Positions 16,596 to 34,711 of a stretch of DNA of 34,711 nucleotides are shown here, one piece after another. Origin of the DNA: Bacilli bacterium (GTDB taxonomy: Bacteria; Bacillota; Bacilli; Paenibacillales; KCTC-25726); contig DASVDB010000028.1 in assembly GCA_036381315.1 (NCBI GenBank), forward strand, positions 1-34,711. Reading direction: 5' to 3'. How positions within the stretch are numbered: the stretch's first letter is position 1; each line of letters starts with the position of its first letter. The translations under genes and the position numbers were made by a program. The notes under the pieces were generated by a model. That model searched no databases, had not been told where the DNA came from, and saw only the letters and a program-made list of their open reading frames with translations.

Positions 16596-16682
16596 GATAT
16601 TAAAACCAAAATTTGAATTTTTCTTGAACAAAATTAGGTGCGTTTTTGGTTGCAAGTCCAGATGGGAAAGGGGATACATGGC

Positions 16683-17696
16683 ATGTCAACCGTATTGCCG
16701 AAAGTGAATGAGCTTGGTTTTTTTCAGTTGCGGCTGGAATCGATCGGCGGATTGGGCGCCAATTTGGCCGGGAAGATGCTGGCGGAAGCCGGGGTGGTAG
16801 GCGCGGGACTGAACGGCGTGAGCTTCTCGTCTTACGGTTCGGAGAAAAAAGGCTCGCCCGTGAAAGCGCATATCCGCTTTTGTGATCCGGAGACGAAAAT
16901 ACGCGACACTTCTCCGGTCGAGCGGCCGCATGTGGTTGGTATTTTCCATGAGAATTTGGCCAAGACAATCAACGTTGTCAGCGGCATTTACGAGGACAGC
17001 ATCGTACTGGTCAATTCCACAAAAAGCCCGGAAAAATTGAAAGAAAAACTGAAAATGGTTGCGGGGACCATTGCCGTAATCGATGCCACCGGCATTGCCC
17101 TCGAGGAAAACAACCGCGTAAACATGGCGATGTTAGGCGGTTTATTCCGTTTATGCAGCTTTTTGGACCCGCAAATTATGCGCGATGTCATTCGCAATTC
17201 CCTGATCAAAAAATATCCGCAGGCGGTGGAACCGGCGCTGCGCACCTTCGAGCGCGGGTACAACGAAGTAAAGTCCCAGACGTTCGCCTTGCCGAAAGGC
17301 GCGCAAATGCCCGCCTACACGCGCATGGATACTCCCATTCTCGGCTACGAAACGCAGGCGATTGGCGGGACGATTATCAATCCCGGCAACAGCATCCTGA
17401 AAGATTTAAGCATTTCGCGTTCCGGGATGATGCCGCATTTCGATCAGGAAAAATGCATCCATTGCGCCAACTGCGACAATGTTTGCCCGGATTTCTGCTT
17501 TGTTTGGGAAGAACAGCCGGATAAAAAAGGCCGCCCGCAAATGTTCCTGCAGGGCATTGACTATCAATATTGCAAAGGCTGCTTGAAGTGCGTCGTCGCT
17601 TGCCCCACGGATGCGCTTACCGAGGCGCGCGAATACGACGACGGCTACGCGGATGAACACAGAGTGGCCCATCGCTGGAATTTGATAGCGAATTGA
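16683..17696 (+). CDS. 2-oxoacid:ferredoxin oxidoreductase, fused gamma + delta (ferredoxin) subunit
   Basis: A protein of 337 aa joining a gamma (coenzyme A-side) domain (about 1-190, beginning LRLESIGGLGANLAGKML) to a 2x[4Fe-4S] ferredoxin-like delta domain. The two cluster motifs are CIHCANCDNVC (C258, C261, C264, C268) and CKGCLKCVVAC (C297, C300, C303, C307), each followed by P. It would carry electrons from the thiamine centre of the partner subunit to ferredoxin. ATG 16683 is used because AAGGGG lies nine bases upstream. The alpha-beta fused subunit starts 28 bases after its stop, giving a two-gene operon. The fusion order differs from the common four-gene delta-gamma-alpha-beta form and from one-chain PFOR. 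Confidence 0.85.
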   Translation: MSTVLPKVNELGFFQLRLESIGGLGANLAGKMLAEAGVVGAGLNGVSFSSYGSEKKGSPVKAHIRFCDPETKIRDTSPVERPHVVGIFHENLAKTINVVSGIYEDSIVLVNSTKSPEKLKEKLKMVAGTIAVIDATGIALEENNRVNMAMLGGLFRLCSFLDPQIMRDVIRNSLIKKYPQAVEPALRTFERGYNEVKSQTFALPKGAQMPAYTRMDTPILGYETQAIGGTIINPGNSILKDLSISRSGMMPHFDQEKCIHCANCDNVCPDFCFVWEEQPDKKGRPQMFLQGIDYQYCKGCLKCVVACPTDALTEAREYDDGYADEHRVAHRWNLIAN

Positions 17697-29217: not shown

Positions 29218-30630
29218 ATGGTTGTTGGAGAAGTGACAAATGAAGTTGACGTGTTGGTGATCGGCGCCGGTCCCGGCGGGTATGTTGCCGCCATCCGCGC
29301 CGCACAGCTTGGCAAATCGGTTACAGTCGTGGAAAAGGACGAGGTGGGCGGCGTATGCCTGAACCGCGGATGCATTCCGTCCAAAGCGTTGATTTCCGCC
29401 GCGCATAAATATGAAACAATCAAGGATTCGGGCGAAATCGGCATCAGCGCCGAAGGGGTCAAAGTCGACTTCGCCAAAGTGCAAACATGGAAAAACGGCA
29501 TCGTCAAGAAATTGACCGGCGGCATTTCCTCCTTGTTCAAGGGAAACGGCGTTCAGGTTGTGAAAGGCGAGGCGTTTTTCACGGCGCCGAACGAAGTGCG
29601 CGTTGCCAGCGAATACGAAGGAGCGCGTTATCGCTTTAACCATTGCATTATCGCGACCGGTTCGCGTCCGATTGAATTGAAAAGCTTTCCGTTTGGCGGC
29701 AGAATCTTGTCGTCGACAGAAGCGCTGGCGCTTACGGAGATCCCGGAAAGCCTTATCGTCATCGGCGGCGGTTATATCGGCACGGAACTTGGGCAAACGT
29801 TCGCCAAGCTGGGCACAAAACTGACGATTCTGGAAGGAACGGACTCGATTTTGCCCGGCTTTGAACAGGACGCCACCAGGCTCGTCGTCAAAAACCTGAC
29901 GAAACTGGGCGCGGAGATCGTAACCAATGCGATGGCGAAAAGCGCGAAGCAGACCGATAAGGATGTTACGGTAACTTATACCGTCAATGGCGAAGAAAAG
30001 AGCGTTACCGCCGAATATGTGCTGGTTACGGTCGGACGCCGTCCCAACACCGACGAGTTGGGTTTGGAAATGATCAATTTGCAGAAAAATGAACGCGGCT
30101 TTATCCAGGTTGACGACAAAGGCCGCACCAACATCCCGAATATTTACGCCATCGGCGATATTGTTGCCGGACCGGCGCTCGCGCATAAAGCTTCTTATGA
30201 GGGAAAAGTCGCGGCCGAAGTGATTGCCGGGCAGGCAAGCGCCGTCGATTACAAAGCCATTGCCGCCGTTGTCTTCTCCGATCCGGAAATTGCCGGAGTC
30301 GGCTTGACAGAGGCGCAAGCGAAGGAAAAAGGCCATAACGTCGTGGTCGGGAAGTTCCCGTTTGCCGCCAACGGGCGGGCGTTGTCGCTGGGGGCGGCGG
30401 AAGGCTACGTCAAGCTCGTGGCCGACAAAGAAACGGGGCTGGTTCTGGGGGCGCAAATCGTCGGACCGGAAAGCTCCAATCTGATCGCCGAAATCGGCCT
30501 GGCCATCGAAATGGGCACGACTTTGGAAGATATAGCGCTCACCATTCACGCGCATCCAACCTTGGGAGAAATCGTGATGGAAGCGGCGGAAGGCGCGCTC
30601 GGCCAAGCGATTCACCAGATCAACAAGTGA
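29218..30630 (+). CDS. pdhD: Dihydrolipoamide dehydrogenase (PDH E3)
   Basis: An FAD-dependent disulfide oxidoreductase of 470 aa that reoxidises dihydrolipoamide on E2 with NAD. FAD-binding GAGPGG is at 16-21, the redox pair C47 and C52 in CLNRGCIPSK, and the NAD-binding GGGYIGTELG in mid-chain. The second FAD motif is IYAIGDIV, and the C-terminal catalytic HPTLGE has H446 and E451. It starts three bases after the pdhC stop with GGAGG upstream. Last gene of the operon and followed by a strong terminator. Confidence 0.95.
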   Translation: MVVGEVTNEVDVLVIGAGPGGYVAAIRAAQLGKSVTVVEKDEVGGVCLNRGCIPSKALISAAHKYETIKDSGEIGISAEGVKVDFAKVQTWKNGIVKKLTGGISSLFKGNGVQVVKGEAFFTAPNEVRVASEYEGARYRFNHCIIATGSRPIELKSFPFGGRILSSTEALALTEIPESLIVIGGGYIGTELGQTFAKLGTKLTILEGTDSILPGFEQDATRLVVKNLTKLGAEIVTNAMAKSAKQTDKDVTVTYTVNGEEKSVTAEYVLVTVGRRPNTDELGLEMINLQKNERGFIQVDDKGRTNIPNIYAIGDIVAGPALAHKASYEGKVAAEVIAGQASAVDYKAIAAVVFSDPEIAGVGLTEAQAKEKGHNVVVGKFPFAANGRALSLGAAEGYVKLVADKETGLVLGAQIVGPESSNLIAEIGLAIEMGTTLEDIALTIHAHPTLGEIVMEAAEGALGQAIHQINK

Positions 30631-30960: not shown

Positions 30961-31046
30961 GGAAAATTATGCGGGAGGTTTTCCAGTATCATTTTATTTT
31001 TGCGTAAATTCGCCGAAAATAACGGGAGGTTTTCCCGTTATTTTCG
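30961..31046. repeat. Paired hairpin repeats with shared GGGAGGTTTTCC core
   Basis: The 12-mer GGGAGGTTTTCC occurs at 30973-30984 and 31024-31035, each preceded by a GAAAAT-containing arm. The right copy folds into a 14-base-pair hairpin (31014-31027 with 31033-31046) that contains the stop codon of the leftward HyfI-like gene. The left copy can pair GGAAAA (30961-30966) with TTTTCC (30979-30984), followed by a T-rich run. They may act as transcription terminators between the convergent operons, or be two copies of a dispersed palindromic repeat. Confidence 0.55.
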
Positions 31047-31634
31047 CAATTTCTCCGTTTTCTCCACCGCCGTCAATATTCCGTGCAAAATTTCCCGGGG
31101 TGAGGGCGGATCGCCCGGCACATAGACGTCGACGGGAATGATTCGGTCCACTCCGCCCAAGTTCGCATACGTTTCGCCGATCAGATCGTCGCCGCACGCG
31201 CTTGAGCCGACAGCGACCACAAGTTTGGGCGACGGCGTGGCGGCATACGTTTTGCGCAGCGCTTCTTCCAAATTCCGCGTAACGCCGCCGGTAACCAGCA
31301 GCATGTCGGCATGGCGCGGCGAAGCGACAAAGTCGATGCCGAACCGCTGCACATCATATACGGGGTTCAGCATTGCCGCCAACTCCCATTCCGCCCCGTT
31401 GCAAGACCCGGTATCCACATGCCGCACGTGCAGCGAGCGCCCGAATGCCTTTTTGATCGCCTTAGGCAGCCGCTCCCGCAACTCGCTCAACGCTGCCGAA
31501 CTTTGTGCGGCCATATGCTTCTGCGCGGTTTCGGCAAACACCGCCGCTTCTTCCGGCGAAAGCGCGAGATGTTGCGGATTGGCGGTTCCCAAGCCGTATT
31601 TCCATAATCGTTTGATGACAGCAAGCAAGTCCAT
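31038..31634 (-). CDS. Group 4 hydrogenase/complex I-like small subunit (HyfI/HycG/NuoB-like), altered cluster site
   Basis: A 198-aa homologue of the small subunit that carries the [4Fe-4S] cluster next to the catalytic centre in membrane-bound hydrogenases and complex I. The family signatures are DTGSCNG, FGIDFVASPRHADMLLVTG, AVGSSACGD and PVDVYVPGDPP. Of the four normal cysteine ligands, C78 and C147 are present, but the second position of CNGC is Ala81 and the PGC position is Asp175. The cluster is therefore probably missing or differently bound. The ATG at 31634 follows GGGGG. It is the last gene of the leftward operon; the HyfH polyferredoxin gene that normally precedes it is absent. 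Its stop lies within a hairpin. Confidence 0.8.
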   Translation of the reverse strand: MDLLAVIKRLWKYGLGTANPQHLALSPEEAAVFAETAQKHMAAQSSAALSELRERLPKAIKKAFGRSLHVRHVDTGSCNGAEWELAAMLNPVYDVQRFGIDFVASPRHADMLLVTGGVTRNLEEALRKTYAATPSPKLVVAVGSSACGDDLIGETYANLGGVDRIIPVDVYVPGDPPSPREILHGILTAVEKTEKLRK

Positions 31635-31660
31635 ATCCCCCTTTCATCCGGGATCGTTGA

Positions 31661-33166
31661 TTAACGGTCACAGCAGGCGTAGCATAATTCAAAACTTTTG
31701 TTGATCAGCGGAAAATCGGGCACGATCGTTCCGGGAACGCATAACGGCACAACCGGCCAGTTGGCATAGGCCGCGGAACGGACACGATAGCGGAAAATCG
31801 CGTTGCGTTCGCCGGTCATGACAAAATGCACGTTTTCTCCCCTTGGCGACTCCGTGATGCCGATCCCGTACCGATAGGCCGGCAAGTCGCCGATTTTCCC
31901 CGCGATTTCGCCGTCCGGCATTTTATTGATGATTTGGTTGATCAGCGAAACCGACTGCCCGGTTTCCAAAGCCCGCATGTTAAACCGCGCCAGCACATCG
32001 CCGCCCGATTGCAGCGGGACCTCGAAGGCAAGCTGCGAGTAAGCGGCGTACGGATGGTCTCGGCGCGCATCGACATCCACTCCGGAGGCTCGCGCCGCCG
32101 GACCGACCGCGGCAAACTTCCTGACAATATCGGCCGCCAACACTCCGGTGTTCGCATATCGGTCTACGGCGATGCCGTTAGCCAACACATCGTTTGCGAC
32201 TTCGCCGGCATTTTTGCCGATTTCTTGCGTGAGGCGCAAAATCTCTTGCAGTTGCCCGTCGTCCAAATCGCGAGCAACTCCGCCCAAGGCGATTGTCCCG
32301 CGCAGATATCGATGGCCGGTCATGCGTTCGTTTAGCTGCAGCAGCATTTCTTTCAGCCTGGCCCCATGGTTGGAACCATAAGCAAACCCGATGCCGGCGC
32401 AAATGTTGCCGATATCCCCGACGTGGTTGTACAGCCGCTCCATTTCCGCGAACAGCATGCGCAAATACTGCGCGCGCGCTGGAATTTGCGCCCCGGCGAT
32501 CTGTTCCACCGCCTGCGCGTACGACATGGCATGCGAAACGTTGCAGACCGTGCAGATTCGCTCGGCCAACCGCAAACCTTTTTCAACATCCATATTTTCG
32601 CTTTTCTTCTCAATGCCGCGGTGCGTGAAAAATACTCTCGTCTCCAAATGCAATATCGTATCGCCCATCACCTGAAACCGGAAATGCCCCGGTTCGATCA
32701 CCCCGGCGTGAATCGGGCCGACCGGCACTTCAAACACGCCTTCGCCTTTAACGAGCGGGTATGTAAAAGCGGACTCCGTGCGCGGGATAAATGTATGGGA
32801 CGTAAAATCTTTGCGCAACGGATAGATTCCTTCCGGGAACCGGTCATGGAAGATCAAATTGCGCGGGTCGGGATGACCGTCGGGTACGACACCCATTAAA
32901 TCGCGCGCTTCCCGTTCATACCAGGATGTTGCAGGCAGCACCTCGGCAAGGGACGGATAGTGCGGGTCCGCTCCGGGCACGATCGTCTCCAGGCACACAA
33001 GTTTTCCCGCATCTTTCGCAAAAAAGTAGCGCAGCACAAACCGGTCGACGCCGCATTCTTTCTCATCGCTTGCAACCATCGTGAGAAAGCGCAACCCTTG
33101 CCCGGCTAAAGATGCGTAAGCGGCTGTTAATTCGGTTCTCTCCGTGCGCAATGTTTCGATTTCCAC
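31661..33166 (-). CDS. Group 4 [NiFe]-hydrogenase-like large subunit (HyfG/HycE; NuoC-NuoD fusion)
   Basis: A 501-aa protein joining an N-terminal NuoC-like 30-kDa domain (about 1-145, with SWYEREARDLMGV) to a NuoD/hydrogenase large-subunit domain. The metal-site motifs are RICTVC (C205, C208; usual form RxCGxC) and a C-terminal LCYACCDR (C495, C498; usual form DPCxxC), so all four cysteines expected to bind NiFe are kept. The chain ends right after that motif and lacks the peptide extension that is cut off in many hydrogenases, as known for CooH/Ech types. The GTG at 33166 is chosen, nine bases after GGAGG and six after the HyfF-like stop; a reading frame to 33289 overlaps that gene and is unsupported. 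Confidence 0.82.
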   Translation of the reverse strand: MEIETLRTERTELTAAYASLAGQGLRFLTMVASDEKECGVDRFVLRYFFAKDAGKLVCLETIVPGADPHYPSLAEVLPATSWYEREARDLMGVVPDGHPDPRNLIFHDRFPEGIYPLRKDFTSHTFIPRTESAFTYPLVKGEGVFEVPVGPIHAGVIEPGHFRFQVMGDTILHLETRVFFTHRGIEKKSENMDVEKGLRLAERICTVCNVSHAMSYAQAVEQIAGAQIPARAQYLRMLFAEMERLYNHVGDIGNICAGIGFAYGSNHGARLKEMLLQLNERMTGHRYLRGTIALGGVARDLDDGQLQEILRLTQEIGKNAGEVANDVLANGIAVDRYANTGVLAADIVRKFAAVGPAARASGVDVDARRDHPYAAYSQLAFEVPLQSGGDVLARFNMRALETGQSVSLINQIINKMPDGEIAGKIGDLPAYRYGIGITESPRGENVHFVMTGERNAIFRYRVRSAAYANWPVVPLCVPGTIVPDFPLINKSFELCYACCDR

Positions 33167-33171
33167 GAAAA

Positions 33172-34638
33172 TCAGCCTCCTGCCATGATCGTTGCGGCTT
33201 GCCGGATCAGTTGCGAGACGGCGGGCGGGATATACAGGCCGAATACCGCAACAAAAAGAAGCGGAATCATGAGCGGCCATACGGACCACCGGCTCAAGCT
33301 TCCCGCGGCCGGCTTGTCTCTCGGCACGCCGAACGACATTTTGCCGATATGAAAAATCATGGCGCCGAAAATAAACGCAACAAACGCCAGCATGATCGAC
33401 GCAATGTAGGGATGCCCTGCGGAGAAGCCGGTTGCGATAATGGAAAATTCACTCGTAAACAGGCTGAACGGCGGCACGCCGGTGATCGCCAATGTGCCGA
33501 GCAACAGCAAGGGCCCCGTAATCGGCATGGCGGGCAAAACGCCGGTCACGCGCCCGATTTGCTTTGTATGATAAGTTTGGTAGATGTTGCCCGCCGTCAA
33601 AAACAACATCGATTTTGCCATCGAGTGGTTGATCATCTGCAAGAGCGCCGCAGCATACCCCATAACTCCTCCGAAACCGATGGCGACGGCGATAATGCCC
33701 ATATGCTCAACGGTGGAAAAAGCAAGCATCCGCTTGTAATCCTGCTGCACGACGATAAAAGGAAACGCCACAATGATGGACAAAAGTCCGAAGCCGATAA
33801 ATAAATGCTGCACCAGTTCCATACCGACGGAATGGCCGGCGATCACGGAAAAACGGATAAGCCCTAGCAATGCGCAGTTGAGCAGCACACCGGACAAAAT
33901 GGCGCTGATCGGCGACGGCGCCTGGCTGTGCGCGTCCGGCAGCCAAAAGTGCAGCGGCGCGAAACCGATTTTCGTGCCCAGCCCGACGAACAGAAAGACG
34001 AACGCCAGGCTGACCATGGATGGCTGCAGCTTAATGCCCGGTTCTTTCAGGAACGACCAATTCAAAATTTCCTTCGACGCTCCGAGCGTATCGACCGCCG
34101 AGGCATACAGAATGATAACGCCCAAAAGGGCGACCGCGATCCCCGCGCTGCAGAGCATCAAATATTTCCATGCCGCTTCCAGCGTTTCGCCTTTGCGGTA
34201 CAATGCCACGAGGAACGCCGAGACGATTGTCGTCGCTTCGATCGCCACCCACAACAGCCCCAAATTGTTTACGGTGCAAACGCACAGCATGGCCGCGATA
34301 AACAGATGATACCACAGGTAATAATGCCTAAACTGGTTTCCGTCAACCGCGCCCTCCCGGCGTTCGCGGCGCATAAAGCCGATGGAGTGCAAAGAGGCGG
34401 TTAAGCCGACAATCGCGATGATGGCAATTTCGATGGCGCCTAAAGCGTCCACATAAAAAAATTGATTGGCGCCGACCACGGTTCCGTAAACGGCTACATC
34501 CCATACAAGCCAGAGCGCGAGCGCAGAAGTTATCGCGCTTCCGGCAAAATGAATCCATTCGATGATCCGCTCCCGCTGCAGGGCGAAGCATGCCAGGGCA
34601 GTAACGGCAGGTGTAAGCAATGTCATAAACGGCAGCAT
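33172..34638 (-). CDS. Proton-translocating membrane subunit (HyfF/NuoN/MrpD-like)
   Basis: A membrane protein of 488 aa with about 13-14 hydrophobic segments and the antiporter-like fold shared by HyfF, NuoL/M/N and Mrp subunits. Key charged residues of the proton path are visible: E134 in WVAIEATT and K223 in GTKIGFAPLHFWLPDAH, which continues into SQAPSPISAILSG. It would couple electron transfer in the soluble arm to proton or sodium movement. The ATG at 34638 lies ten bases after the HyfE-like stop, with GGGGTG as ribosome site. Gene order E-F-G-I matches hyf-type operons except for the missing H. Confidence 0.85.
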   Translation of the reverse strand: MLPFMTLLTPAVTALACFALQRERIIEWIHFAGSAITSALALWLVWDVAVYGTVVGANQFFYVDALGAIEIAIIAIVGLTASLHSIGFMRRERREGAVDGNQFRHYYLWYHLFIAAMLCVCTVNNLGLLWVAIEATTIVSAFLVALYRKGETLEAAWKYLMLCSAGIAVALLGVIILYASAVDTLGASKEILNWSFLKEPGIKLQPSMVSLAFVFLFVGLGTKIGFAPLHFWLPDAHSQAPSPISAILSGVLLNCALLGLIRFSVIAGHSVGMELVQHLFIGFGLLSIIVAFPFIVVQQDYKRMLAFSTVEHMGIIAVAIGFGGVMGYAAALLQMINHSMAKSMLFLTAGNIYQTYHTKQIGRVTGVLPAMPITGPLLLLGTLAITGVPPFSLFTSEFSIIATGFSAGHPYIASIMLAFVAFIFGAMIFHIGKMSFGVPRDKPAAGSLSRWSVWPLMIPLLFVAVFGLYIPPAVSQLIRQAATIMAGG

Positions 34639-34648
34639 GTTGGTTGAT

Positions 34649-34711
34649 TCACCCCTTCAGCCTTCGCAGCCAATCCGTGCTGATGCTTTTAAACGTCTGA
34701 TTCATCCGGTA
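34649..34711 (-). CDS. HyfE-like membrane subunit, C-terminal fragment
   Basis: Twenty codons ending in TGA (34649-34651) run off the right edge. The peptide ends STDWLRRLKG, resembling the hydrophilic tail of HyfE (NuoK-like) proteins, and the position directly before a HyfF-like gene fits. Identification rests mainly on context. Confidence 0.5.
   Translation of the reverse strand, partial: YRMNQTFKSISTDWLRRLKG

Follow-up and report, generated by a model that had tools for sequence, protein, structure and literature searches.

The window, as we call the whole stretch of 34,711 nucleotides that was analysed, is the entire contig C28 of genome G000, from a Bacilli bacterium of the Paenibacillales. 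At its right end, on the minus strand, lie genes for subunits of a hydrogenase-like complex, hyfF, hyfG and hyfI, preceded by the 3′ end of hyfE (Table 1). The remainder of the operon was recovered on contig C82 by a HyfC-family search of the genome. The first 10 bases of C82 are the last 10 of the window, an overlap of contig ends, and joining the two contigs gives a complete HyfE; the joined frame ends in TLNYRMNQTFKSISTDWLRRLKG followed by a stop codon, a tail that matches HyfE of genome G010. The completed operon, spanning two contigs, has the order hyfB-hyfC-hyfE-hyfF-hyfG-hyfI.

Table 1. Positions of the hyf genes and of the altered ligand codons. Plain numbers refer to the window; those preceded by L020 to contig C82.
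Feature	Position	Strand	Remarks
hyfI, small subunit, 198 aa	31038..31634	minus	ligand positions C78, A81, S145, D175
D175 codon GAT	31110..31112	minus	fourth ligand position
S145 codon AGC	31200..31202	minus	third ligand position
A81 codon GCG	31392..31394	minus	second ligand position
hyfG, large subunit, 501 aa	31661..33166	minus	GTG start; C205/C208, C495/C498
hyfF, antiporter-like membrane subunit, 488 aa	33172..34638	minus	Pfam Proton_antipo_M, 7.5e-55
hyfE, 3′ end	34650..34711	minus	rest on C82, L020:2-586 minus; 10-base overlap
hyfC	L020:634-1569		upstream of hyfE; Pfam NADHdh
hyfB	L020:1577-3604		upstream of hyfC; Pfam Proton_antipo_M

Inspection of the translations by eye places motB- and motA-like genes upstream of hyfB and an lpdA-like gene (29218-30630) past hyfI. 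A separate nuo locus is present elsewhere in the same genome, on contig C176. On the plus strand of the window at 16638-17693, some 13 kb away from hyfI, a 2-oxoacid:ferredoxin oxidoreductase domain of the gamma type is joined in one gene to a ferredoxin domain with two clusters, a possible source of ferredoxin in the genome.

No stop codon or frameshift interrupts any of the six genes, and both Mrp-type and HyfC-type membrane subunits are retained. Conserved positions kept in the membrane subunits number 84/87, 34/38, 16/17 and, for HyfF, 70/77. They include transmembrane lysine and glutamate residues (Glu146, Lys226 and Lys257 of HyfB; Glu134, Lys223 and Lys342 of HyfF). Lys210 of HyfF, conserved among relatives, is serine in the window.

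The metal-site cysteines and the proximal cluster site

A preliminary description of this DNA had reported intact NiFe cysteines in the large subunit, and they are indeed present, Cys205 and Cys208 within ERICTVC and Cys495 and Cys498 within ELCYACCDR at the end of the protein. The RxCGxC motif of group 4 enzymes reads RICTVC. There is no C-terminal extension, the last residue, Arg501, being three past the final ligand. Glu158 and Arg442 align with Glu193 and Arg478 of HycE from Escherichia coli, and Asp529 of HycE is glutamate in the window and its clade. When compared with relatives that have intact NiFe cysteines, the window HyfG keeps 72/74 near-invariant columns and that of G221, a genome (70% complete) from another family within the same order, keeps 73. 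HyfG and HyfI, modelled separately, gave confident folds matching HycE and MbhJ, with pLDDT values below 50 for HyfG residues 497-501. The best structural match of the predicted HyfG model is HycE (7z0s_E, TM 0.93). Among solved structures HyfI is closest to MbhJ of Pyrococcus furiosus MBH (6cfw_J), with 50% identity over the aligned core.

The ligand positions of HyfI were set by alignment to P. furiosus MbhJ, E. coli HycG, NuoB of complex I and about 50 relatives. Three of the four canonical cysteines of the proximal [4Fe-4S] site are missing and only Cys78 is left. The ligand set had been read earlier as C78-A81-C147-D175; the assignments of C78, A81 and D175 hold, but that of C147 does not, as the third ligand aligns with Ser145. 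Cys147 is the second cysteine of a GACxCSGG loop, and many relatives have it besides the ligand cysteine. The tandem cysteine pair of the complex I type is absent. Conserved columns of HyfI are otherwise well kept, 29/33 in both the window and G221; those lost in the window are ligands 81, 145 and 175 together with Gly149 of the loop, and G221 likewise lacks three ligands and Gly149. By our own hypergeometric estimate, four lost columns would include three of the four ligands with a chance of about 0.003.

Could a sequencing or assembly error account for the missing ligands? This was rejected since two of the codons are more than one base from a cysteine codon, only the AGC of Ser145 being a single base away, and a second genome, G221, also lacks the third and fourth ligands. 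The earlier proposals of an Asp-ligated cluster and of a rewired electron exit fare poorly in the same comparison. G221 has P78/C81/D145/D175, a different set, and in each protein at most one of the canonical cysteines is left. As G221 retains the other N-terminal cysteine, with aspartate as opposed to serine at position 145, the two proteins show no common alternative set of ligands, and the differing cysteine speaks against a cluster of any kind.

Relatives, HyfH and maturation factors

HyfG/HyfI pairs gathered across many genomes fall into three cysteine patterns. In classical Ehr sequences HyfG positions 205/208/495/498 are S,E,S,G, and HyfI retains its cluster and carries a fused HyfH; 12 rows of this kind bear out the earlier statement that Ehr relatives display the opposite pattern to the window. 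An Ehr-like pattern, S,x,S,G, occurs in the second copy of G1119 and in G951, G984 and G960. These loci (L152, L153, L154 and L155) represent a distant second Ehr-like lineage in the same class, with an intact HyfI cluster. The remaining group, which is the largest, has all four NiFe cysteines and mostly no C-terminal extension. In locus L150 (G826) Cys208 of HyfG is aspartate though HypD is present, and the HyfI open frame includes masked sequence. The scan of the named genomes returned no homologues from Mycobacterium, where the Rv0082-Rv0087 operon is described only as a putative NiFe hydrogenase (PMC6901956).

Loss of HyfI ligands was seen in just two genomes of the set, that of the window and G221. 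In a tree built with the ligand columns left out these two are sisters (support 100/98), within a six-row clade that adds G866, G941, G1127 and G892 (95/95) and a ten-row clade that further adds G1079, G1064, G1032 and G1008 (100/99). The description of a distinct lineage that retains the cysteines of the metal site and has lost its electron exit is upheld by this sister pair. Close homologues with the full cysteine set, which had been named as evidence to the contrary, do exist (G1127, G866, G892), but the window gene is not a lone decayed copy. That candidate was rejected on conservation, dN/dS and branch length: the window end branch, 0.35, does not stand out as long beside those of its relatives, and the comparison with G221 gives dN of 0.32 against dS of approximately 2.3, the latter saturated. 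Cys205, Cys208, Cys495, Cys498, Glu158, Arg442, Glu493 and Arg501 belong to the 138/501 columns that are invariant through the ten-row clade. In the six-row clade all four cysteines are unchanged over a summed branch length, from our own addition, of about 2.9 substitutions per column. Judged from its genes, the six-subunit complex is shown to be intact and under purifying selection. On the same comparisons the electron relay is lost precisely, in a maintained complex, and the changes are targeted.

As had been noted, no ferredoxin gene lies between hyfG and hyfI. The possibility of HyfH elsewhere in the operon was ruled out once the C82 half was recovered, since no ferredoxin cluster motif occurs in the whole six-gene operon. 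The 2x[4Fe-4S] part is missing, as claimed, but HyfH is not totally absent, its N-terminal helix apparently surviving on HyfI. The HyfI N-terminus (MDLLAVIKRLWKYGLGTA) resembles the amphipathic leader of relatives with fused HyfH-HyfI, and HycF of E. coli FHL has its N-terminal amphipathic helix at the membrane (PMC9474812). A suggested co-occurrence of A81/D175 with the absence of HyfH is not borne out, HyfH being missing from at least 10 other genomes that have a full HyfI cluster. Some of the relatives with four NiFe cysteines have the ferredoxin part and others do not, and it has apparently been lost several times within this group.

HypD and HypF build the Fe(CN)2CO unit of [NiFe] hydrogenases. 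Of the six maturation factors, HypA to HypF, the search covered these two. HypD was not found, nor HypF over the cut-off, in the window's genome (a draft, 98.9% complete), in G010 or in any of the ten clade rows. Weak HypF matches were partial and turned up in all the genomes searched, even in controls that lack HypD; as positive controls, E. coli and many relatives score strongly for both factors. Either factor may have escaped detection in the draft of the window's genome, or others may stand in for it. G1127 and G866 are single contigs, estimated as 100% complete, and neither HypD nor HypF was found there. All ten clade genomes keep the four NiFe cysteines, and hence the pocket is conserved where NiFe(CN)2CO apparently cannot be made. 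The earlier claim that the NiFe site itself is retained is therefore correct for the cysteines only. We found no description, in the open-access literature, of NiFe cysteines kept without Hyp factors or without a proximal cluster.

Three members of the clade, G1127, G866 and G892, keep HyfH and the HyfI cluster with no HypD or HypF found; HyfH of G1127 was called from its location, with hyfG on one side and hyfI on the other, and from a pair of CxxCxxCxxxC motifs. These loci (L136, L137 and L138), which encode complete Hyf-type complexes with the NiFe cysteines and have a ferredoxin gene of two motifs standing separately, are a cleaner case than the window of a 'hydrogenase' without HypD and HypF. 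G1119 and G1087, with similar HyfI and a HyfG too short to place, have both factors, so that the history of Hyp loss is not one clean event and may have recurred. In G602 (locus L089), where HypD and HypF were not found, Cys495 is phenylalanine and the HyfI cluster and HyfH are intact, which means that decay of the NiFe site can happen. L089 looks like an intermediate on the way to Ehr.

Comparison with known systems and possible function

The window complex resembles group 4 [NiFe] hydrogenases (E. coli Hyf/Hyc) in subunits B, C, E, F, G and I and in the NiFe cysteines, but it differs in having no HyfH clusters, three of the four proximal ligands lost, no HypD or HypF found and no extension. 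Ehr complexes are defined by missing NiFe ligands (PMC6349859, PMC10284858, PMC4378227) and are excluded from HydDB as non-hydrogenases (PMC5037454). Like the window complex they are hydrogenase-like with Mrp-type membrane subunits and are not expected to handle H2, and they form a sister clade in one of the trees built. Here, however, four cysteines are present, and where Ehr rows keep the HyfI cluster and HyfH the window is the reverse. With its reversed cysteine pattern the complex fails the definitions of both hydrogenase and Ehr, though a homologue of each. In MBS only two of the original four NiFe cysteines are left, but its proximal cluster is still catalytic (PMC7684303); the window is the opposite, with four cysteines and no complete cluster site. 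Complex I has lost the NiFe cysteines and has the N2 tandem cysteines in NuoB, whereas the window keeps the former and has no tandem. Mrp antiporters share the antiporter-like membrane subunits with conserved lysine and glutamate, but have no arm of the HyfC/G/I type.

What might such a complex do? In the absence of an Fe(CN)2CO pathway and of a relay, the complex is not expected to turn over H2 in a reaction coupled to electron transfer. As a membrane energy complex descended from H2-producing enzymes, it probably moves ions and leaves hydrogen alone. We favour, with a probability of about 0.5, a redox-disconnected, complex-I-like, putatively ion-translocating complex with a conserved, non-hydrogenase Cys4 pocket. 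HyfG would be without a standard NiFe(CN)2CO centre, and electrons would be unable to reach its pocket via clusters. The pocket, formed by Cys205, Cys208, Cys495 and Cys498 with Glu158, Arg442 and Glu493, would probably hold a simple metal ion or serve as a thiol or ligand site, acting mainly by conformation on the ion path through HyfB, HyfC and HyfF. The complex would then be a gated, Mrp-like translocator of protons or cations and not an electron-driven enzyme. The retained pump subunits and the pocket suggest an ion-translocating complex in which the cytoplasmic arm may act through binding of a ligand or metal. Hyp factors were likely lost first, then HyfH, then cluster ligands. More tentatively, the invariant Cys4 pocket of the clade as a whole might be a Hyp-independent centre of another kind, or a thiol switch, coupled to ion pumping, with the window and G221 as members devoid of any relay.

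We regard it as unlikely that the complex is a relic, caught in early decay after hydrogenase function was lost and before the NiFe cysteines had drifted. The Hyp factors, HyfH and cluster ligands are gone, and the C495F change in G602 is an instance of site decay, but a relic is at odds with six uninterrupted genes, the retention of 72/74 and 29/33 conserved positions, a low dN/dS, the lack of a long branch and the constancy of the four cysteines in the six-row clade.

Just as doubtful is a redox enzyme that employs another metal in the Cys4 pocket, with a soluble donor, or CxxC thiol chemistry, and no cluster relay. Invariance of the pocket throughout a clade without HypD and HypF would fit, and G1127, G866 and G892, with HyfH and the HyfI cluster, keep an electron path to it; on the other hand the two of these cysteines that MBS retains have been shown to be non-catalytic (PMC7684303). 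With the relay broken in the window and G221, electrons would have to take a new route.

Aspartate can ligate [4Fe-4S] clusters in some proteins. A HyfI cluster with the unusual ligands C78, C147 and D175, feeding a new redox partner, nevertheless appears improbable. C147 and D175 are common to the window and G221, and MBS has a cluster with only three cysteine ligands (PMC7684303), but the set is not conserved, G221 having P78/C81/D145, and Gly149 is lost in both. Least credible is a working hydrogenase, its Hyp genes missed or replaced by another maturation route. In its favour, the NiFe ligands and second-shell residues are intact, and every member of the clade lacks a C-terminal extension, processing at that end being dispensable for some group 4 large subunits. 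Against it, neither HypD nor HypF was found in any of the ten genomes, of which two are single contigs, and the window has no proximal cluster or HyfH, whereas in E. coli FHL a relay through HycF and cluster G1 of HycG leads to the NiFe site (PMC9474812).

Implications for annotation and evolution

Annotation usually takes intact CxxC pairs to mean a NiFe hydrogenase and missing ones to mean Ehr. The clade suggests that these cysteines can be conserved even where HypD and HypF are absent, so motif-only annotation may overcall hydrogenases. A stepwise loss of cysteines has been proposed from MBH to MBS to complex I (PMC7684303). The route seen in the window, where the wiring was lost before the metal-site cysteines, is the reverse of that proposal and adds an evolutionary route. 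The complex makes ion pumping without redox chemistry a testable question.
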